This document shows, one piece after another, positions 18,891-27,726 of a stretch of 36,834 bases of DNA. Source of the DNA: an uncultured Opitutia bacterium (GTDB taxonomy: Bacteria > Verrucomicrobiota > Verrucomicrobiia > Opitutales > UBA953); contig CAIOPO010000153.1 of assembly GCA_903860195.1 (NCBI GenBank), forward strand, positions 1 to 36,834. The letters are read 5' to 3'. Both the position numbers and the translations under genes were made by a program. Positions within the stretch are counted from its first letter, which is position 1, and the number at the start of each line of letters is the position of its first letter. A model generated the notes under the pieces. The model was not told the DNA's origin and did not search any database. It was given only the letters and a program-made list of their open reading frames with translations.

Positions 18891-19598
18891 TTATGCCTCG
18901 CCCTGCCCTGACTCCAGGAGCTCGTCCAGACCGGCCTCAGGGAGGGGCGAGGGCATGGGCATGGGGGGAGCGGACAGGTCGAAGGCGTCGGAGGTCAGAG
19001 GCAGATCGGGCTCATCCGGGGAGACGGACAAGGGGTAGTCTGGCTCGTCGCCGGAACCCACGGCCGATTCGACGTAGAACATCAGGCCGGAATATTCGGC
19101 AGGCACCGTGACGCGGAGCTCCACGAACACCAGCAGGAGCAGGCAGAGGTGGGCCGAAGCGCGGCCGAAACGCTGGGCGAAGGCGCTGAGCGAACGCAGC
19201 GCCTGCGCGACGCCGGCCTGCTGCCGGGAACGGAGATAGGCGGTCTGCGCCCGATGCAGGCGCATGCGCGACTGGAAGCGGGACCTCAGGTCGGCGGAGA
19301 CGCGGATCGCGTCACGGAGCCGGATGACCTGCGAACGGGTGGCCACTCCGTCGAGATAGGCGTAGGAGAGCTGGTCGAATTCGGCCAGCCCGGGAAGGTC
19401 GTTCTCACGGATCACGGCCTCGGCGGCCTCACGACTGGCCATGCCACGCTGCGCCCTGCGCAGGCGGACGCGCGCGCGGAACAGTTCCTTGCTCTTCGGG
19501 GAGGAGGCGACGAAGCCGCGCAGGACCTGCATGTCCTCCGGAGAGGCCGAGCCGTCCACGTAACGGACGATGAGGGACTCGATTTCGATCGGACTCAC
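18891..19598 (-). CDS. Putative membrane-anchored anti-sigma-like protein with duplicated N-terminal module
   Basis: GTG start overlaps the sigma factor stop (GTGA). Two related modules YVDGSASPEDMQVLRGFV...FRARVRLRRAQ and YLDGVATRSQVIRLRDAI...FQSRMRLHRAQ, then TM-like LCLLLLVFVELRV and an acidic/Pro-rich tail. Confidence 0.7.
   Translation of the reverse strand: MSPIEIESLIVRYVDGSASPEDMQVLRGFVASSPKSKELFRARVRLRRAQRGMASREAAEAVIRENDLPGLAEFDQLSYAYLDGVATRSQVIRLRDAIRVSADLRSRFQSRMRLHRAQTAYLRSRQQAGVAQALRSLSAFAQRFGRASAHLCLLLLVFVELRVTVPAEYSGLMFYVESAVGSGDEPDYPLSVSPDEPDLPLTSDAFDLSAPPMPMPSPLPEAGLDELLESGQGEA
19239..19574 (-). repeat. Intragenic duplication encoding two ~44-aa anti-sigma-like modules
   Basis: Residues ~9-52 and ~77-120 align without gaps around Y-V/L-D-G and R-x-R/M-x-R-L-R/H-R-A-Q. 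The repeat is at protein level. Confidence 0.6.
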
Positions 19599-20185
19599 TG
19601 CCTGAACTCCCCTCCCATGAGGTCGCGCAAGGCCTCGCGCGCCCGGTTGATGCGGCTCTTGACCGTGCCGATGGAAAGGCCGAGTTCTTCGGCGATCTCC
19701 TCGTAGGACAGGTTCTGCACGTTCCGCATCGTGAGAATCTGAGCATGCTCGGGCTTCAATTGTTCCATGCATTCGGCCACTTTGCGGACGAACTCATTGT
19801 GCTGGGCCTCTCCGCCCGGACCGTGGGAGCCGTCCGAGAGGATGTCGTGCAGGGTGGCGCCAGGGTCATCCCCCAGGTCGGCGTCCAAGGACATCGACTG
19901 GTCACGCTTGCGACGCCGCCAATACCAGTAGCGGTTACGAGCGAGATTGGTGCCTATCTGGTGAATCCAGGTCGAAAAGGTGGCCGTACCGCGGAAGGAG
20001 GCGAGCACCCGGTGCGCCCGAATGAAGGTGTCCTGAGTGATTTCCTCGGCGTCCTGACGGTTCCGAAGCAGGGAAAAGACCTTCGCGAAAATCCTTCCCT
20101 GATACTTCAGCACAAGCTCGTTGTAGGCGGAAAGGTCGCCCTTTCTGGCCCGGTCGAGCGCGGACTGGTCGGCTTCGGACTCCAT
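19595..20185 (-). CDS. ECF-type RNA polymerase sigma factor
   Basis: Region 2 (YNELVLKYQGRIFAKVFSLLRNRQDAEEITQDTFIRAHRVLASFRGTATFSTWIHQIGTNLARNRYWYWRRR) and region 4 (LKPEHAQILTMRNVQNLSYEEIAEELGLSIGTVKSRINRAREALRDLM). Start reset to MESEADQSA. Confidence 0.92.
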   Translation of the reverse strand: MESEADQSALDRARKGDLSAYNELVLKYQGRIFAKVFSLLRNRQDAEEITQDTFIRAHRVLASFRGTATFSTWIHQIGTNLARNRYWYWRRRKRDQSMSLDADLGDDPGATLHDILSDGSHGPGGEAQHNEFVRKVAECMEQLKPEHAQILTMRNVQNLSYEEIAEELGLSIGTVKSRINRAREALRDLMGGEFRQ

Positions 20186-20274: not shown

Positions 20275-21975
20275 ATGCTCCCCTCTTTCAAGAAGTCATC
20301 CCAGGTGCGCTGGCTCAACTGCCTTACGGGAACCCGCGGCGTATCCAAGGAGCTGTCCGTCGCGCAACCAGGCTGCTCTGTCCGCGCCGTCCAGGGAGCG
20401 GACGGACTGCACGTCGAACCGGGCGAGCGCCATTCCCTCCTCAACGGAAAACCTTTCCTCGCCCCGGTCACCCTGCGGGAGGCGTCGACGCTCCAGACCG
20501 AGGACGCGCTGCTGATCCTCGCCCCGGAGGAGGACGCCACGATCGCGGCCGCCGACTGCTCACGCTGGGCGCTCTTCGATGCGGGCGCGGGCGAATTGAT
20601 CGCGGAATGTCCTTCGACCGAACTGCTTGACCGCGCCGCCCAGCTCGGCAGGGCCCCCGACACGCTCGCATGCACGCCGGTCGGCATGGAGGTCGGATTC
20701 AGTCTCTCGCAGGCCGCGCCGCTGCTCTGCCCTCCCCCGACGCCGATCAAGCCCGCCGCGCCCGCCCTTGCGGCGGAACAGAACAAGGGAGCGCACGTCT
20801 GCCCGGTCTGCTGGACCCGGTTCGACGCCGGCGACGCGCTGAGCGTGGCGGTCCACGAGGAGCTGCGGGGCGACCCCGTGCTCGGCTCCGACGCACGCCT
20901 GCGCTTCCAGCCCACGCGCTTCAACGACCAGGGGCTGGCGCTCGACCCCAAGGGGCTGGCCTGCACCGACATCGCCTGCCCGCACTGCCGACGTCAGCTT
21001 CCGCCCGGCTACCTGGACCTGCCGCACCGCATCATCTCGCTCATCGGCGCGCCGAGTTCGGGCAAATCCTACTACCTGGCGGTGCTCACGCGGGTCCTGC
21101 AGGAAAGGCTGCCGCTGGACTTCGGACTGGCGTTCCGCGACGGAGACCCGAGCGGCAACATGCTGCTCAATCAGATGCGCAGCACGCTCTTCTCCGCCAC
21201 CACGCCCGAGGAGGCGCTGCTGGGCAAGACGGCCCTCGAAGGCGCGACCTATGAGAAGCTGCCCAGGCTGGGGAAGATGGTGTCGCTGCCGCGCCCCTTC
21301 ATCTATTCGGTCGGCCGCCCCGGTCAGCGCTCGAAGGAGAACTCGATGATCTTCTACGACAACGCCGGCGAGCACTTCGAACCCGGCATCGACATCCATG
21401 ACTCGCCGGGAGCCATGCACGTGGCGACGTCCTCCGGACTCATCTTCCTCTTCGACCCCACCGCCAACGCCCGCTTCAAGTCCAAGCTCGTCGGAGTCGA
21501 GGACCCGCAGCTCACGATGCGCGGACGCGTGGACCAGCAGGACACGATCCTCTCCGAGATGGAGACGCGCATCAAACGGGTGCTCGGGCTTTCCCACGAA
21601 CAGCGCATCGCGACGCCGCTCGCCTTCGTGGTGGGCAAATGCGACACCTGGGCGCACCTGCTCCCCTCGCCCCTGGAGCCCGTCGTGCGCGACGGCGGCC
21701 TCGATCTCGCCGCCCTCGACCGCAACTCCGACCGGGTCAGGCACGTGCTTGCGGAACTCTGCCCCGGGCTGGTCGCGTCCGCCGAGTCGTTGGCGTCGGA
21801 GATGCGCTATTTCGCGGTGACGTCGTTCGGGCACTGCCCGGTGACGGTCGAAAGCGGCCCCAATCGCGGGCGCATCGCGCCCGACCCGCTCCGGCTCGCT
21901 CCCGCTCACGTGCAGGAACCGGTGTACTGGCTCCTCCGGCTGGCCTCGCCCGAACTCATCCCCGCCGCCCGCTGA
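20275..21975 (+). CDS. Zn-ribbon-like P-loop GTPase, TRAFAC/'double-GTPase'-like; operon gene 1
   Basis: CPVC...CPHC cysteine pairs, then Walker A IGAPSSGKSYYLAVLTRVL, DxxG-like IFYDNAGEHFEPG, NKxD-like FVVGKCDTW. Confidence 0.75.
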   Translation: MLPSFKKSSQVRWLNCLTGTRGVSKELSVAQPGCSVRAVQGADGLHVEPGERHSLLNGKPFLAPVTLREASTLQTEDALLILAPEEDATIAAADCSRWALFDAGAGELIAECPSTELLDRAAQLGRAPDTLACTPVGMEVGFSLSQAAPLLCPPPTPIKPAAPALAAEQNKGAHVCPVCWTRFDAGDALSVAVHEELRGDPVLGSDARLRFQPTRFNDQGLALDPKGLACTDIACPHCRRQLPPGYLDLPHRIISLIGAPSSGKSYYLAVLTRVLQERLPLDFGLAFRDGDPSGNMLLNQMRSTLFSATTPEEALLGKTALEGATYEKLPRLGKMVSLPRPFIYSVGRPGQRSKENSMIFYDNAGEHFEPGIDIHDSPGAMHVATSSGLIFLFDPTANARFKSKLVGVEDPQLTMRGRVDQQDTILSEMETRIKRVLGLSHEQRIATPLAFVVGKCDTWAHLLPSPLEPVVRDGGLDLAALDRNSDRVRHVLAELCPGLVASAESLASEMRYFAVTSFGHCPVTVESGPNRGRIAPDPLRLAPAHVQEPVYWLLRLASPELIPAAR

Positions 21976-21977
21976 AC

Positions 21978-24089
21978 ATGCCCCTTCAGCTGATCTTCAC
22001 CTCCGCGCCCCAGGGCCTTGCCGCCGGCAGGTCCGGCTTCTGCACGGTGGCGCGCCACCGCGAAATGCCCGACCGGCTGGCCCAGCTGCTGGAATCGCTC
22101 GGGACGCCGCACGCCTCCGCCACGGGAGAGACTTTCACCTTCCGGTCCGTCGAGGCGGGCGGTTCACGCTGGCTGGTGCTTTCCAGATTCGTCGCAAGGG
22201 GACTGGATTACACGCGACGCGACAACCGCCTCGCGCACCATCTCGTCTTCCGCCCGGAGGAGACCGCCGTGCTTCCGCCGCCCGCAGCGATCGCCTATCG
22301 CTGGAAGGGCTGGAAAGACGAATGGACCGAGCAGGCCCGATGGCTCGACGGAGCCGACCGTCCGATCGAACTCGCCAAGGACGCTCCGCTCACGCCCGCC
22401 ACGGCCTGGAGGGAAGAGACAGGGACCGGCTCCAAGGCCGCCTGGCTCGTCAAAGGCAGCTCGCCCGCGGCGGTGTGCCTGCTCAACGCGCCCTCCACAG
22501 CGCGGACGCTCCGACTGCTGGCCGAATCTTCCGCCCTGCTGGGCGAAGGCGCCTGGTCGGCCGCGTTCACGACGGACGCAGGTGTCACCGGCGGCGAAGG
22601 TTTTGACTGGTGCGTCGGTCACGTCCCCGGCCGCGCGGACACTCTTGACCTGTCCCTGGCCGCCTCGCTCCCCGCACCCACGGGTCCCGCCGCCAAGGCC
22701 GCGGCGATGGGCACGGCGGCTTCGCAGGCGTCAGGCCCCGCGCAACGGCACCGCGAGCCGGCACGCAAGGAATCAGGTCCGTCAGGCCTGCTCATCGGCA
22801 CGACCGCGGTCCTGCTGCTGGCCGTGATCGGTCTCGGCATTTTCTTTTTCAGGACTCCGGAAGCGCCTCCGGCTCCTCCGCCGCCTCCGCCGCCCCGGGC
22901 GCCCACGGCGCAGGAGATGGCCAAGGCGGACGAGATCATGCGCGCCAACAGCGCGCTGGGAGCCATCGAGGGTCTGGTCGCGCGCGAGGAGTTCGTCGAC
23001 GCCGCCAAACTCTGGCTGCAGAGCGACGAAATTTCTCCGGAGTTCAGCCGCAGGCACGCCACCCAGCACCTGCCGGGGCTGAGGTCGAAGTTCGCCGCCG
23101 GCGCCGCGCGCAAGCTCTCCGCCGAACTCGACCGCAAGGGTCTGTCCGGCGCGCGCGAACTCCTCGCGCAGGGCGAAGAGGCCCTGACGGTCGGCGCCCG
23201 GCTCGAAGTGCCCAAGGACGCCGCGTGGGACTCACTGCGCGCGACGGTGGACAAGCTGCGCGTGGCCGCCGGACTTTTCGTCCGTCCGGTCACGGTCATC
23301 CAAGGCGTCTGGGAGACGGCCGACGGCGGACCGAACGCGCCCTCGCAGGCCGACTTCCAGCTTTCACCCGCCGCCGCGGACGCCTTCTCGGAACTCATCA
23401 ACGCCACGACGGTGACCAAGAGCCGCGCGGTGGACGTGCGGCTCAGGATCGTCCCCCTCGAGGGCTTCCACCGCAGGGATGAGACGAAGTTCATCGGCGG
23501 CGAGATCCGCAAGGGCGGCGAGGCCGACTGGATCGAGGCCCGCCCGGAACCCGGCAGGCTCTCGCCGATCACGGTCGGCGTCGGCAAACGGGCGAAGAAG
23601 GTGTCGCTCCAGTTCGCCGACGGACGGGGAGCCGACCGGGACGCCAATCGGCTGCTCGAGATCGAACTGCCCGGCGGCGAACTCAGGGCCTTCGCCCTCA
23701 TCGGTTCGCCGCGCACGCTGCGGCCGTCCAATCTCGGCATCGCCGCGCTCATCGTCGACCCGGACACCAAGGCGGTGCGCGCCGCGCCCTGGGCGGAGGC
23801 GGCGCTCAACGCCTTCGTCTTCGCCGGCGGCGGAGTCGGACTATACCCGGACGGACACGAATTCCCCGACCGCGACCTGCCCTCGGTGAAGGCCACCCGC
23901 TCCCTGCTTGAAACCGACCTCATCCGGCTGGAGCGGGCCACCGGACCCTCCGCGCCTCCGCAGGAGACGGTCACCCGCCGACGTCAGCTGCTCGAGGCCG
24001 GTGACACGGCCGGAGCCGGCGCGCCCTGGACGCTGCGCGCGGTGGACGCACGCGGCCAGGCCGGCCCCGCGCTGCTTGAATTCCGCTGA
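21978..24089 (+). CDS. GAP1-N2-like (GTPase-associated protein 1) N-terminus + TM + poly-Pro linker + uncharacterised C-terminal domain; operon gene 2
   Basis: N-terminus LIFTSAPQGLAAGRSGFCTVARHREMPDRLAQLLESL...LSRFVARGLDYTRRDNRLAHHLVF. TM GLLIGTTAVLLLAVIGLGIFFF, then PEAPPAPPPPPPPRAP. Starts 2 nt after gene 1 stop. Confidence 0.72.
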   Translation: MPLQLIFTSAPQGLAAGRSGFCTVARHREMPDRLAQLLESLGTPHASATGETFTFRSVEAGGSRWLVLSRFVARGLDYTRRDNRLAHHLVFRPEETAVLPPPAAIAYRWKGWKDEWTEQARWLDGADRPIELAKDAPLTPATAWREETGTGSKAAWLVKGSSPAAVCLLNAPSTARTLRLLAESSALLGEGAWSAAFTTDAGVTGGEGFDWCVGHVPGRADTLDLSLAASLPAPTGPAAKAAAMGTAASQASGPAQRHREPARKESGPSGLLIGTTAVLLLAVIGLGIFFFRTPEAPPAPPPPPPPRAPTAQEMAKADEIMRANSALGAIEGLVAREEFVDAAKLWLQSDEISPEFSRRHATQHLPGLRSKFAAGAARKLSAELDRKGLSGARELLAQGEEALTVGARLEVPKDAAWDSLRATVDKLRVAAGLFVRPVTVIQGVWETADGGPNAPSQADFQLSPAAADAFSELINATTVTKSRAVDVRLRIVPLEGFHRRDETKFIGGEIRKGGEADWIEARPEPGRLSPITVGVGKRAKKVSLQFADGRGADRDANRLLEIELPGGELRAFALIGSPRTLRPSNLGIAALIVDPDTKAVRAAPWAEAALNAFVFAGGGVGLYPDGHEFPDRDLPSVKATRSLLETDLIRLERATGPSAPPQETVTRRRQLLEAGDTAGAGAPWTLRAVDARGQAGPALLEFR

Positions 24090-24091
24090 AC

Positions 24092-27001
24092 GTGTCCCCT
24101 GAAAGGCTCATAGCTCGCATCCGCCTGCAGCTGGAACTGGGCACGCCGGACCTGGAATCTCGGTCGCTGGCGTCGGAATACGCCGCGCTCTGCGGAAGGG
24201 CCAGGGAACGGCTCGAGCAGTGCGCCACGCTGATCGGAGCGGGCGACGACCACGCCGCCTTCCAGTCGGCGGAGGCGGAACCCGACCTGCTCGGGCTGTG
24301 CGCCCAGCTCAGTTTCGCCGATGCGGAAAGATGGCACGGCTTCTGCCGGGATCACGGGCTTCCCGCGGGCTTCCCGCTGGATGACCGGCACCTGATGGCG
24401 GTGGAAGGGCTCTACGGCCGGGCGATCGGCGAAAGCCACCCGCTGTACCGCGACTACCGCGACGCGATCCGCCGACGGGACGAGGAGCGCGCGCTGGAGG
24501 TGCTGCGCTCGATCGCGCGCATCAATCCCGACGATCCCAACGCGCGCCAGGAACTGACCCGGCTGTCCGCGAAGTTTCTGCGTGAATCACTCATCCGGGT
24601 CGGAAAGGATTTCGACGCGGGCAAGGACGCCGAGGCGGTGGCGCTGATGGACCGCATGGAAAGGTTCGGAGCCGGCGACCTCGCCGGCGAACCCCGCTGG
24701 GAGGACGCGCTCCGCCGACGTCTGGCCTGGCTGCGGCTCCGCGCCGCCGAACAGGCCTCCGCCCTCGCCGCTGAGATCCGCTCAGCGCGCCGGGCCGGAG
24801 ACTGGGAGGCCTGCGCCGGCGCGCTGCCCAGGCTGCGCGCGCTGGAACGGGACCACCGGCTGGATCCGGCCGGAGAGGATGTCGCCGACATCGAGGTCTG
24901 GGCGGGGACTTTGGCCGCTGAAGCCGCGGCGGAAGCCGCCGCACGCACGGCAGTCCAGGAACTCGAGGACGAACTCGTCAAGCTGCGGGCCGACTCCGCG
25001 CGGGGCGCGCATCCCGCGGCGCTCATCGCCCGGCTGGGCGCCTGGCTTGAGCGCGCCGCCGCCTACGAGGAAAGACTGCCCGAAGGCGCCCTACGCGAAG
25101 CCCGTTCGCTCCGCCAACGCGCCCGCGCCCGTCTGAGCCGACGCTACACGCTGCTGCTCAGCGGATGGGTCGCGGCACTTCTGGTGATCGGGGCCGGCGC
25201 GGTCTGGTGGATCCAACGTCAGGGCGAGGAGCTGCGGGCCGCGCAGACGCTCGAGCAGGCGCGCAATCTGGTGGCCCGGTGGGAACATGCGGCGGCCGCA
25301 CGTACCCTCGACTCCCTGCCCGCCGCGGGAGACGAGGTCGCGAAGCTTCGTTCCGACCTGGAGGCCAATCGCAAGGCCGAGGCAACGCTGCAGGAGGACG
25401 CCGCCTACTTGCGTGGCGCGCTCAAGGCCGGAGTGCGGGCGGAGGACGCGGCCAAGGTCGCACGTCGGCTGCGCGACTACCTGGAAAGGCTTGAGAAGGC
25501 GGGCGCCGCGGCGCGGGAGACGCTGGAGAAGGAATTCACCGAACCCGGTCGTCTCTCCGCGGAATGCGCCCGCGCCCTCGATCAGGCGAGAGCCGAACTC
25601 GCCGCCCAGGCGGCCACCCTCAAGGCGGCCCTCGGCGAAGGCGAAAAGGCCTCCGACCCCTCCGCCGCGGTCGCCGCCCTCGACCGGATGAAGGCCTTGA
25701 TCAGGATTCTCACCGAAGCGGGCGATCGGGACGCGCGGATGGACGCTTATGCGGCCGAGGCGGACCGGGCCTCGGTACGGCTGGGCGATGAACGCAAGGC
25801 CCTCGAGGTCCGACGCGCCCTGGAACAGGCCCCGGACCTCCGGTCCTACCTCGACGCGCTGGCCAAGGTCTCAGCCGAGGCCGCGCCAGATTCCGAGCTA
25901 CGCCGCCGTGCCACGTCCGCCCTGGCCGCCGCCAACGGTCTGCGCGAACTGCCCCGGGCGGCCCTGGCGCCGAGATTCGGCGCGATGTGGGACGCCGCCG
26001 CCCTGCCCGACCCGTCGGGAACCTTCCTTCCCGCCACGCTGAGCGAAGGCGAGGCCAACGCTCTCAGACGGGTCGGCGACGACTCCACCACGCGCCGCCT
26101 GCGCCGGCTCAGCCTCGTCTACCATTCCTCGCAGGGACGCCGTCCGATGCGCCAGATCATCGTGGTCGGGGAGCCGCTGACCCAGCGCAACTCGCTCAGC
26201 AACGGGACGGAGTTCATCACGACGGCCGATGAACTCACGCCTGAAGGCGCGATCCTGCGCGGCACCTGGAAACGCATCGAGTTCAACAATGACGTCAAGG
26301 TGGGGGAGTTCCTCACCGACGAAGGACCCATCGCGGAGGCCGCGCACTTCCGGCAGTTCGCACGGCTGGTCGACGAGTCCGGCAAGGCCTCCGCCCCCGT
26401 GCTGCGCACGCTCGACCTCGTGAGGCGTGCGGAGAAGGCCCCGGTGGAACTCAGGGCCTGGCAGGCGCAGGAGCTCTTCAAGGTCGCCGCCATGCGCCCC
26501 GAAGCCTGGGGGCTCACGTTCTCGCCGTCGGCCCAGCGCGACGCCGAGAAGCTGCGCCGGGTGACGCAGAACGCGATGACGCAGCACGACTTCCTTTTCC
26601 GCGAACGCTGGGCGGCTTCGCTGTCCGACCTCACGCTGGCGATGGTGCGCTCCACCGGACCCGATTACGCGCGGGAAGCCGCCGTCTGGCGCTCGCTCGT
26701 GACGGCCTTGCGCGCGAAGCAGCCGGTCTTCGCTGGCCACGTCGCCCCGGACGGCAAGCCGCTGCTGCGCGAACAGTCCAATGCCGACGCGCTCTACGGC
26801 ATCAATCAGGAGGGCAAGCCCGCCCTGCTCTTCCGGACGGACTCCCAAGGGGTCGCGGAACGCGTCGCCGACCCGGCCCCCTACTCCCCTCTCCTCCGGA
26901 TGCCCGGCTCAGTCGAGGAAAGCGTCAAGGCCGTGGGCGGAGAAGACATCCCCGCTCCGCCCGGAGGCTGGGAATCGATCCTGCAAGGCAGGGACATCTG
27001 A
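24092..27001 (+). CDS. Large alpha-helical/coiled-coil protein with one central TM helix; operon gene 3
   Basis: GTG start 2 nt after gene 2 stop. Helix-rich N-terminal third, TM YTLLLSGWVAALLVIGAGAVWWI, Ala/Glu/Arg-rich coiled coil, distinct C-terminal domain. Confidence 0.72.
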   Translation: MSPERLIARIRLQLELGTPDLESRSLASEYAALCGRARERLEQCATLIGAGDDHAAFQSAEAEPDLLGLCAQLSFADAERWHGFCRDHGLPAGFPLDDRHLMAVEGLYGRAIGESHPLYRDYRDAIRRRDEERALEVLRSIARINPDDPNARQELTRLSAKFLRESLIRVGKDFDAGKDAEAVALMDRMERFGAGDLAGEPRWEDALRRRLAWLRLRAAEQASALAAEIRSARRAGDWEACAGALPRLRALERDHRLDPAGEDVADIEVWAGTLAAEAAAEAAARTAVQELEDELVKLRADSARGAHPAALIARLGAWLERAAAYEERLPEGALREARSLRQRARARLSRRYTLLLSGWVAALLVIGAGAVWWIQRQGEELRAAQTLEQARNLVARWEHAAAARTLDSLPAAGDEVAKLRSDLEANRKAEATLQEDAAYLRGALKAGVRAEDAAKVARRLRDYLERLEKAGAAARETLEKEFTEPGRLSAECARALDQARAELAAQAATLKAALGEGEKASDPSAAVAALDRMKALIRILTEAGDRDARMDAYAAEADRASVRLGDERKALEVRRALEQAPDLRSYLDALAKVSAEAAPDSELRRRATSALAAANGLRELPRAALAPRFGAMWDAAALPDPSGTFLPATLSEGEANALRRVGDDSTTRRLRRLSLVYHSSQGRRPMRQIIVVGEPLTQRNSLSNGTEFITTADELTPEGAILRGTWKRIEFNNDVKVGEFLTDEGPIAEAAHFRQFARLVDESGKASAPVLRTLDLVRRAEKAPVELRAWQAQELFKVAAMRPEAWGLTFSPSAQRDAEKLRRVTQNAMTQHDFLFRERWAASLSDLTLAMVRSTGPDYAREAAVWRSLVTALRAKQPVFAGHVAPDGKPLLREQSNADALYGINQEGKPALLFRTDSQGVAERVADPAPYSPLLRMPGSVEESVKAVGGEDIPAPPGGWESILQGRDI

Positions 27002-27004
27002 ACC

Positions 27005-27592
27005 ATGAGCCAGGAAAACTCGCACAGGCTGAGATGGAAGGGCACGGTGAGCGGACCGCATCCGGCCTCGCGCATCGCCGAGATGCTGCGCGCGGGCGAG
27101 ATCAGCCTGGCGCACGGCGTGGAATCGGAAGGACGCTGGATGACCGTGCGGGAGTTCCTGCGCGGCGGCCGGGCGCCGAGGGAGTTCGCGCCCGCCCGCA
27201 GTCAATCGACCGATCACGCCGCCCCCGCGAGCGCGGCCGCCGAAGTCTCCGAACGCCAGCAGACGGACGACTCGATCGAACGTTCGGCGCGCGAAGGCTA
27301 CCTCTGGTGCGGCTCGACCTTCCTCCTTCCTCCCGCCTTCGGCCTGCTGGTCTGGCTCTGGGTGCAGGCGGTGCCGGAGACGCAGCCCATCTCCCGTTTC
27401 GTGCTGCTGGCCTTTTGCGCGGCGCTGGGCTGCCTGCTCCCGGTCGCGATGGTCCGTCGTGTCGGGGCGGTCCTGGAACAGGAAGGCCTGGGCGAACTCC
27501 GGCAGGCCCAAGGCCGGCTATCGGTCATGCTGGCCGGGCTCGGTTTCGTCTTCTGGCTGGCCATGTTCTGGTTCCTCAAGGGGGGTTCCTGA
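27005..27592 (+). CDS. GYF_2-like domain + about three TM helices; operon gene 4
   Basis: N-terminal RLRWKGTVSGPHPASRIAEMLRAGEISLAHGVESEGRWMTVREFL resembles GYF_2. Hydrophobic segments STFLLPPAFGLLVWLWVQAV, FVLLAFCAALGCLLPVAMV, SVMLAGLGFVFWLAMFWFL. Starts 3 nt after gene 3 stop. Confidence 0.65.
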   Translation: MSQENSHRLRWKGTVSGPHPASRIAEMLRAGEISLAHGVESEGRWMTVREFLRGGRAPREFAPARSQSTDHAAPASAAAEVSERQQTDDSIERSAREGYLWCGSTFLLPPAFGLLVWLWVQAVPETQPISRFVLLAFCAALGCLLPVAMVRRVGAVLEQEGLGELRQAQGRLSVMLAGLGFVFWLAMFWFLKGGS

Positions 27593-27649: not shown

Positions 27650-27726
27650 GGTAGCGTAGCTCAGTTGGTTAGAGCGAGGGACTCATAAGCCCTAGGTCGG
27701 CGGTTCGATCCCGCCCGCTACCACCA
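27650..27726 (+). tRNA. tRNA with CAU anticodon (elongator Met or Ile2); CCA encoded
   Basis: Acceptor GGTAGCG/CGCTACC, D arm GCTC..GAGC, anticodon loop CTCATAA, T arm GGCGG-TTCGATC-CCGCC, 3' ACCA. Confidence 0.95.

Follow-up and report, generated by a model that had tools for sequence, protein, structure and literature searches.

A conserved GTPase–GAP1 membrane operon of freshwater Opitutales resembles a resident machine of the envelope more than a phage-defence cassette

Introduction

The closest described systems are those of Kaur et al. (2020; PMC7159879), who reported a zinc-ribbon (ZnR) GTPase paired with a GAP1-N2 protein and proposed for the pair a role in biological conflict. A GAP1 protein fused to a C-terminal transmembrane (TM) helix was already part of that report, as was, for planctomycetes, the fusion of GYF with a region rich in TM segments, and Verrucomicrobia lie within the stated range. 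The current view of GAP1-N2 systems, that they serve conflict in multicellular bacteria, was reached without experiments. In Myxococcus, the Agl-Glt system combines a GTPase switch with an envelope-spanning complex; MglA is the GTPase, MglB the GAP, and the AglRQS motor has one homologue of TolQ/ExbB and two of TolR/ExbD (PMC3169522). A 2025 survey (PMC12204202) described uncharacterised loci of PVC bacteria with tolQ and paired tolR-like genes, together with vWA (transducer) and TPR genes. These loci differ from the ones presented below in that their description names neither a GTPase nor GAP1 or GYF.

Here we analysed a stretch of 36,834 nucleotides (the window) from a freshwater lineage of Opitutales (Verrucomicrobiota). 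It belongs to a 2.1 Mb draft assembly, one of 55 genomes compared within the genus, whose members are freshwater Opitutae MAGs. An earlier note on this DNA had proposed a conflict-type, membrane-anchored GTPase/GAP1 system of four genes, possibly in an undescribed configuration.

Results

The operon consists of four genes on the forward strand, g1 (20275..21975, ATG start, 566 aa), g2 (21978..24089, ATG start, 703 aa), g3 (24092..27001, GTG start, 969 aa) and g4 (27005..27592, ATG start, 195 aa). They span positions 20275–27592, and when the coordinates were recomputed the intergenic gaps were 2, 2 and 3 nt, as had been claimed. Its right border is a tRNA-Met (CAT) gene identified by ARAGORN (27650..27726, +), which is followed by rsfS and nadD. 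The upstream neighbour is a divergent gene for an ECF sigma factor (19595..20185, −), and next to it lies a putative membrane anti-sigma factor (18891..19580, −), so named from its position and a TM-like segment. The latter matched no Pfam family and its start is uncertain, as homology begins in its second repeat. Within the genus the ECF sigma factor has a mean identity of 92% and a dN/dS of 0.03, a conservation far above that of its neighbours, and the putative anti-sigma factor is only 33–50% identical in most members. Among the four operon proteins, NCBIfam offered no useful family, no FN3 match was found with Pfam, and PADLOC returned a single chance-level match (E 0.14), with no Zorya component matched.

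The alignment of g1 with its homologues showed a conserved P-loop (GAPSSGKS) and the motifs DxxGE (DNAGE) and GKxD (GKCD). The zinc-ribbon cysteines CPxC...CPHC (CPVC/CPHC) and DNAGE are invariant or nearly so; the protein has one four-cysteine ribbon rather than the usual two of GAP1-N2-type systems. The Pfam profile DO-GTPase2 matched g1 with E 8e-5 and 22.8 bits, under the curated cut-off of 27 bits, and it matched 20/20 of the g1 relatives. The AF2 model of g1 (pLDDT 84.7) retrieved atlastin, EF-Tu, YcjX and Ras structures when searched against the PDB with Foldseek. The motifs, the cysteines and the fold agree with the zinc-ribbon P-loop GTPase described in the earlier note. FHA matches at the N-terminus were weak (afadin, KIF13B, KIF1B and EssC; E 0.1–0.7). 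In the homologue from locus L140 all three profiles matched significantly (FHA 7e-13, GYF_2 4e-10, and DO-GTPase2 1e-7, the last over its threshold), and because of this homologue a layout of FHA-like domain, GYF-like domain, zinc ribbon and DO-GTPase2-type G domain is supported for the cytosolic g1 protein, in which it appears degenerate. Elsewhere, two GTPases (L063 6433–8289 and L064 6648–8516) have no zinc-ribbon cysteines and also no adjoining GAP1 gene, so that loss of the cysteines and loss of the partner go together in them.

The product of g2 carries a GAP1-N2 domain (PF20013) at residues 4–122, with E 5.1e-18 and 65.9 bits against a cut-off of 24. According to the AF2 model, a TM helix (residues 271–291) is followed by a Pro-rich linker, a helical stalk and a beta-rich C-terminal domain, and by the positive-inside rule the stalk and the beta-rich domain are predicted to be periplasmic. 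Neither GAP1-M nor GAP1-C of Pfam matched g2 at E values up to 1; its C-terminal half is taken up by the TM helix, the stalk and the beta-rich domain. The profile and the helix fit the earlier description of a GAP1-N2-like TM protein. No PDB match was obtained with the g2 sequence profile, and the fold search against the PDB gave none at E ≤ 1e-3. The best bacterial match by fold was TagF (E 9e-3, probability 0.98), which was too weak to use.

From the alignment and its homologues, g3 is a large bitopic protein with a conserved helical N-terminal region and a single TM segment at about residues 345–370; the long coiled coil and the C-terminal domain that follow are predicted to be periplasmic. 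This is the large helical/coiled-coil TM protein of the earlier reading, and the g3 profile found homologues adjoining GTPase and GAP1 genes across the phylum. The g4 protein has an N-terminal GYF_2-like domain and a C-terminal multi-TM region. By themselves, neither g3 nor g4 matched a Pfam family above its curated cut-off. The GYF_2 match of g4 alone is not significant; its homologues match GYF_2 with E values of 1e-12 to 1e-15, and also RDD, and it is through them that the proposed GYF_2-like multi-TM identity of g4 is supported. With TM helices predicted in g2, g3 and g4, the count of three membrane proteins among the four was confirmed. In the g4 proteins of several members of the genus (L036, L040, L042 and L045) the linker after the GYF-like domain contains a PPPPG motif, which is absent from the window's g4 and which we take to resemble a GYF ligand and possibly to be bound by a GYF domain.

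We then compared the locus within the genus. g1 was present in 47/55 genomes, including some of only 1.3–1.5 Mb. Where contigs were long enough (35 loci, the window itself excluded), the order g1–g4 was identical in every case, and all 35 occupied one chromosomal site, between the sigma factor and rsfS. Mean pairwise amino-acid identities were 74, 56, 58 and 52% for g1, g2, g3 and g4, as compared with 75% for ptsI and 66% for rsfS, and the median dN/dS values (0.18, 0.38, 0.33 and 0.44, respectively) indicate that the four genes are under purifying selection. This conservation rejects the possibility that the reading frames are chance artefacts. In three genomes (G043, G045 and G049) g1–g4 have been cleanly deleted together, with the flanking sigma factor and rsfS genes and the tRNA-Met intact. 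This loss, which takes all four genes or none, is the strongest argument for one dispensable unit, and we regard it as almost certain that g1–g4 constitute a single conserved GTPase–GAP1 membrane unit. In one further locus (L053, genome G016) g1 is broken by a frame disruption or an assembly error, and g2–g4 remain.

A neighbourhood survey, which the earlier note had named as a check, showed that the four genes also occur together in several other families of the order; the lack of co-occurrence that the note had given as a refutation of its reading was thus not observed in the genus or in these families. Across the phylum, GAP1-N2 was found above the cut-off in 66/384 genomes; judged by these searches, the system is patchy at phylum scale and nearly fixed in the window's genus. 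A scan of GTDB with the GTPase profile yielded 511 confirmed relatives, and among the best 80 of the 511 were numerous MAGs of Verrucomicrobiota, together with the cultured species Brevifollis gellanilyticus and Akkermansia glycaniphila. Two deviating loci were noticed as well. One, in a genome of a sister genus of the same family (L149 10100–11503, G055), is an orphan GAP1-N2-TM gene with no GTPase or g3 gene nearby. The other, in another member of Verrucomicrobiota (L147, G302), has GAP1-N2 and an HSP70-like gene ('GIDLGTTYSCVAYV') together with a GTPase that is highly divergent, and so recalls the theme of HSP70 in systems of actinobacteria and firmicutes.

In 39 homologous loci across the phylum, among them those of Brevifollis gellanilyticus and Prosthecobacter, the same cluster contains genes for a TolQ-like protein (a MotA/TolQ/ExbB homologue) and/or TolR-like proteins. 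The usual set is one TolQ-like protein and two TolR/ExbD-like single-TM proteins, encoded mostly after the core GTPase–GAP1–g3(–GYF) and less often before or flanking it. The TolQ-like proteins match Pfam MotA_ExbB with E values from 1e-8 to 5e-12 and keep the TolQ/ExbB hallmark segment. In one of the single-TM, TolR-like families an Asp at the start of the TM helix is invariant, the position used by TolR, ExbD and MotB. Next to the TolR-like genes of loci L144 (433–1230) and L153 (1343–1957) we also observed a small protein with a TM segment, a disordered linker and a globular domain. Its three-part layout is like that of TolA/TonB, and it may be a force transducer.

Outside the genus, 26 loci had room for motor genes and contained none there; this is our own count, restricted to loci with enough downstream sequence. 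The homologous operon of Akkermansia glycaniphila likewise had no motor in the retrieved stretch. There are no motor genes in the window, and profile searches for both single-TM families found TolR-like subunits in 0/55 genomes of the genus. As a positive control, the profile of the first of these families found its target in 6/10 other genomes, which were exactly those with motor loci. The idea that the motor is kept elsewhere in the window's genome was also considered. None of its five MotA_ExbB homologues matched the operon-type TolQ profile at E ≤ 1e-3 in the whole-genome search, which gave nothing at all; a laxer search of genome stretches with the TolQ profile gave 1.8e-5. No operon-type TolR-like subunit was found elsewhere in this genome, where only general ExbB/TolQ homologues are present. 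In a quick tree of the GTPases, with moderate supports (85–91) on the relevant nodes, motor-bearing loci fall into both deep halves, and the clade of the window, in which the motor is missing, has as its sister a clade of Opitutales that carries it. Loss of the motor in the window's lineage is the simplest reading, with moderate support.

Discussion

Judged by its domains, the operon is a GAP1-N2 GTPase system of the kind described by Kaur et al. Its ZnR DO-GTPase carries the Walker B Glu and is encoded immediately before GAP1-N2; the GAP1 protein has a C-terminal TM helix, and there are further TM proteins and a GYF/TM partner. The family assignment of the earlier note (GAP1-N2, a DO-GTPase2-type GTPase and a GYF-like TM partner) held in Pfam and among homologues. 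Its suggestion of an undescribed configuration stood only in part: the GAP1-TM and GYF-TM fusions had been published, and the arrangement is overall only partly new. Unlike the published systems, the window has no FNIII-repeat protein and no recognised effector, and its composition is not variable, the same four genes being found in 35/35 loci of the genus. It also has a conserved g3 component and an FHA-like N-terminus on g1, and operons of its relatives contain a TolQ/TolR-like motor. The text of Kaur et al. does not report such a motor, and TolQ, ExbB, MotA and Zorya do not appear in it; the supplementary source data may list motor genes. In a literature search we found no paper linking GYF, GTPase and TolQ.

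One explanation of the operon is an anti-phage or altruistic-death module, in which the GTPase–GAP1 pair would sense invasion and trigger g3 and g4 as membrane effectors. GAP1-N2 systems were classed in this way by Kaur et al., the several TM proteins could be such effectors, and the patchy distribution in the phylum would fit. A defence system with an ion motor, Zorya, is also known (PMC11890865); its ion-driven 5:2 motor and a possible defence setting are points of likeness, whereas the window has neither a motor nor a Zorya match. Against this reading, PADLOC gave nothing above chance and the four proteins have no known effector domain. The genes are under purifying selection with no hypervariable component, and they are kept even in reduced genomes. 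Their fixed composition and near-core inheritance are not like those of a hypervariable conflict cassette. We consider a conflict role unlikely, and the earlier classification as a conflict-type module is weakened by the near-core vertical inheritance, the fixed composition and site, the missing recognisable effector and the recurrent motor link.

The divergent sigma factor suggests another possibility, namely that the operon belongs to an envelope-stress response under the ECF sigma/anti-sigma pair, with the GTPase complex as its membrane sensor or effector. The sigma gene lies beside g1 throughout the genus and also in other families (L058, L060 and L239), and for one DO-GTPase a connection with PspF operons and membrane stress has been reported (PMC11237479). 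It stays, however, where the operon is deleted, and it is far more constrained than the operon; both points indicate that the sigma factor has other targets. Moreover, conservation of the intergenic region is poor and no shared promoter stands out in it, and in most motor-bearing relatives the stretch retrieved contains no sigma gene of this kind. A sigma-controlled promoter was looked for, and the intergenic alignment contained no convincing motif. The sigma factor is associated with the operon by position, its regulation of the operon is putative, and this explanation seems to us rather improbable. More doubtful again is a motor-less GTPase scaffold whose task has nothing to do with a motor, such as organisation of the cell surface or the division site, the motor of the relatives being a separate add-on. 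It would account for the 26 motor-less loci outside the genus and for the whole window lineage, and the core GTPase–GAP1–g3 recurs alone in marine Verrucomicrobiales (L201, L204 and L205). But in distant families, from either side of the GTPase tree, this core is directly adjoined by the same three motor genes, and the recurrence favours an old functional link between core and motor.

Overall, the operon has more in common with a resident machine of the envelope than with a phage-defence cassette, and we put the chances of its being an envelope machine, as opposed to a defence effector, at about even. Our best explanation is that g1–g4 form one vertically inherited, GTP-switched complex in the inner membrane. 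The cytosolic switch would be g1, the GTPase with FHA, GYF and zinc ribbon, and its partner, tethered to the membrane, would be the GAP1-N2 domain of g2. Through their single TM helices, g2 and g3 would relay the GTP state to long periplasmic stalks, and the GYF-like domain of g4 may dock the switch to the membrane. In the ancestral machine, GTPase cycling most likely engaged or gated a motor that was driven by the proton-motive force and acted on the cell envelope, with force transmission, envelope maintenance or surface movement as candidate tasks. In the window lineage the dedicated motor would have been lost, leaving a GTP-regulated envelope scaffold or a complex that borrows a general ExbB/TolQ motor. 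As the window has no motor gene, an envelope-machine function for it is extrapolated from the relatives. The patchiness of GAP1-N2 across the phylum also fits an accessory system.

In its widest form, which we offer tentatively, this explanation sees the GAP1-N2/DO-GTPase2 systems of Verrucomicrobiota as GTPase-gated envelope machines driven by the proton-motive force, composed of the FHA-GYF-ZnR GTPase, GAP1-TM, g3, GYF-TM, one TolQ-like and two TolR-like proteins. They would be an independent counterpart of Agl-Glt, and the window a derivative without the motor. In Agl-Glt, the zinc-finger and GYF-type cytosolic domains of GltJ read MglA-GTP. The differences are a different GTPase family and the fact that no Glt proteins were identified; TolQ/ExbB and TolR/ExbD proteins encoded together with the complex, as in Agl-Glt and Tol-type systems, were found in the 39 loci of the relatives and not in the window.

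For a family hitherto viewed as conflict systems, a lineage in which one of them is near-core and invariant and a recurrent motor link together provide an alternative that can be tested, namely that the GTPase controls a motor of the envelope. The cultured carriers Brevifollis gellanilyticus, with the motor, and Akkermansia glycaniphila, with none in the retrieved stretch, make the system approachable, and little is known of the cell biology of the phylum that the alternative concerns.
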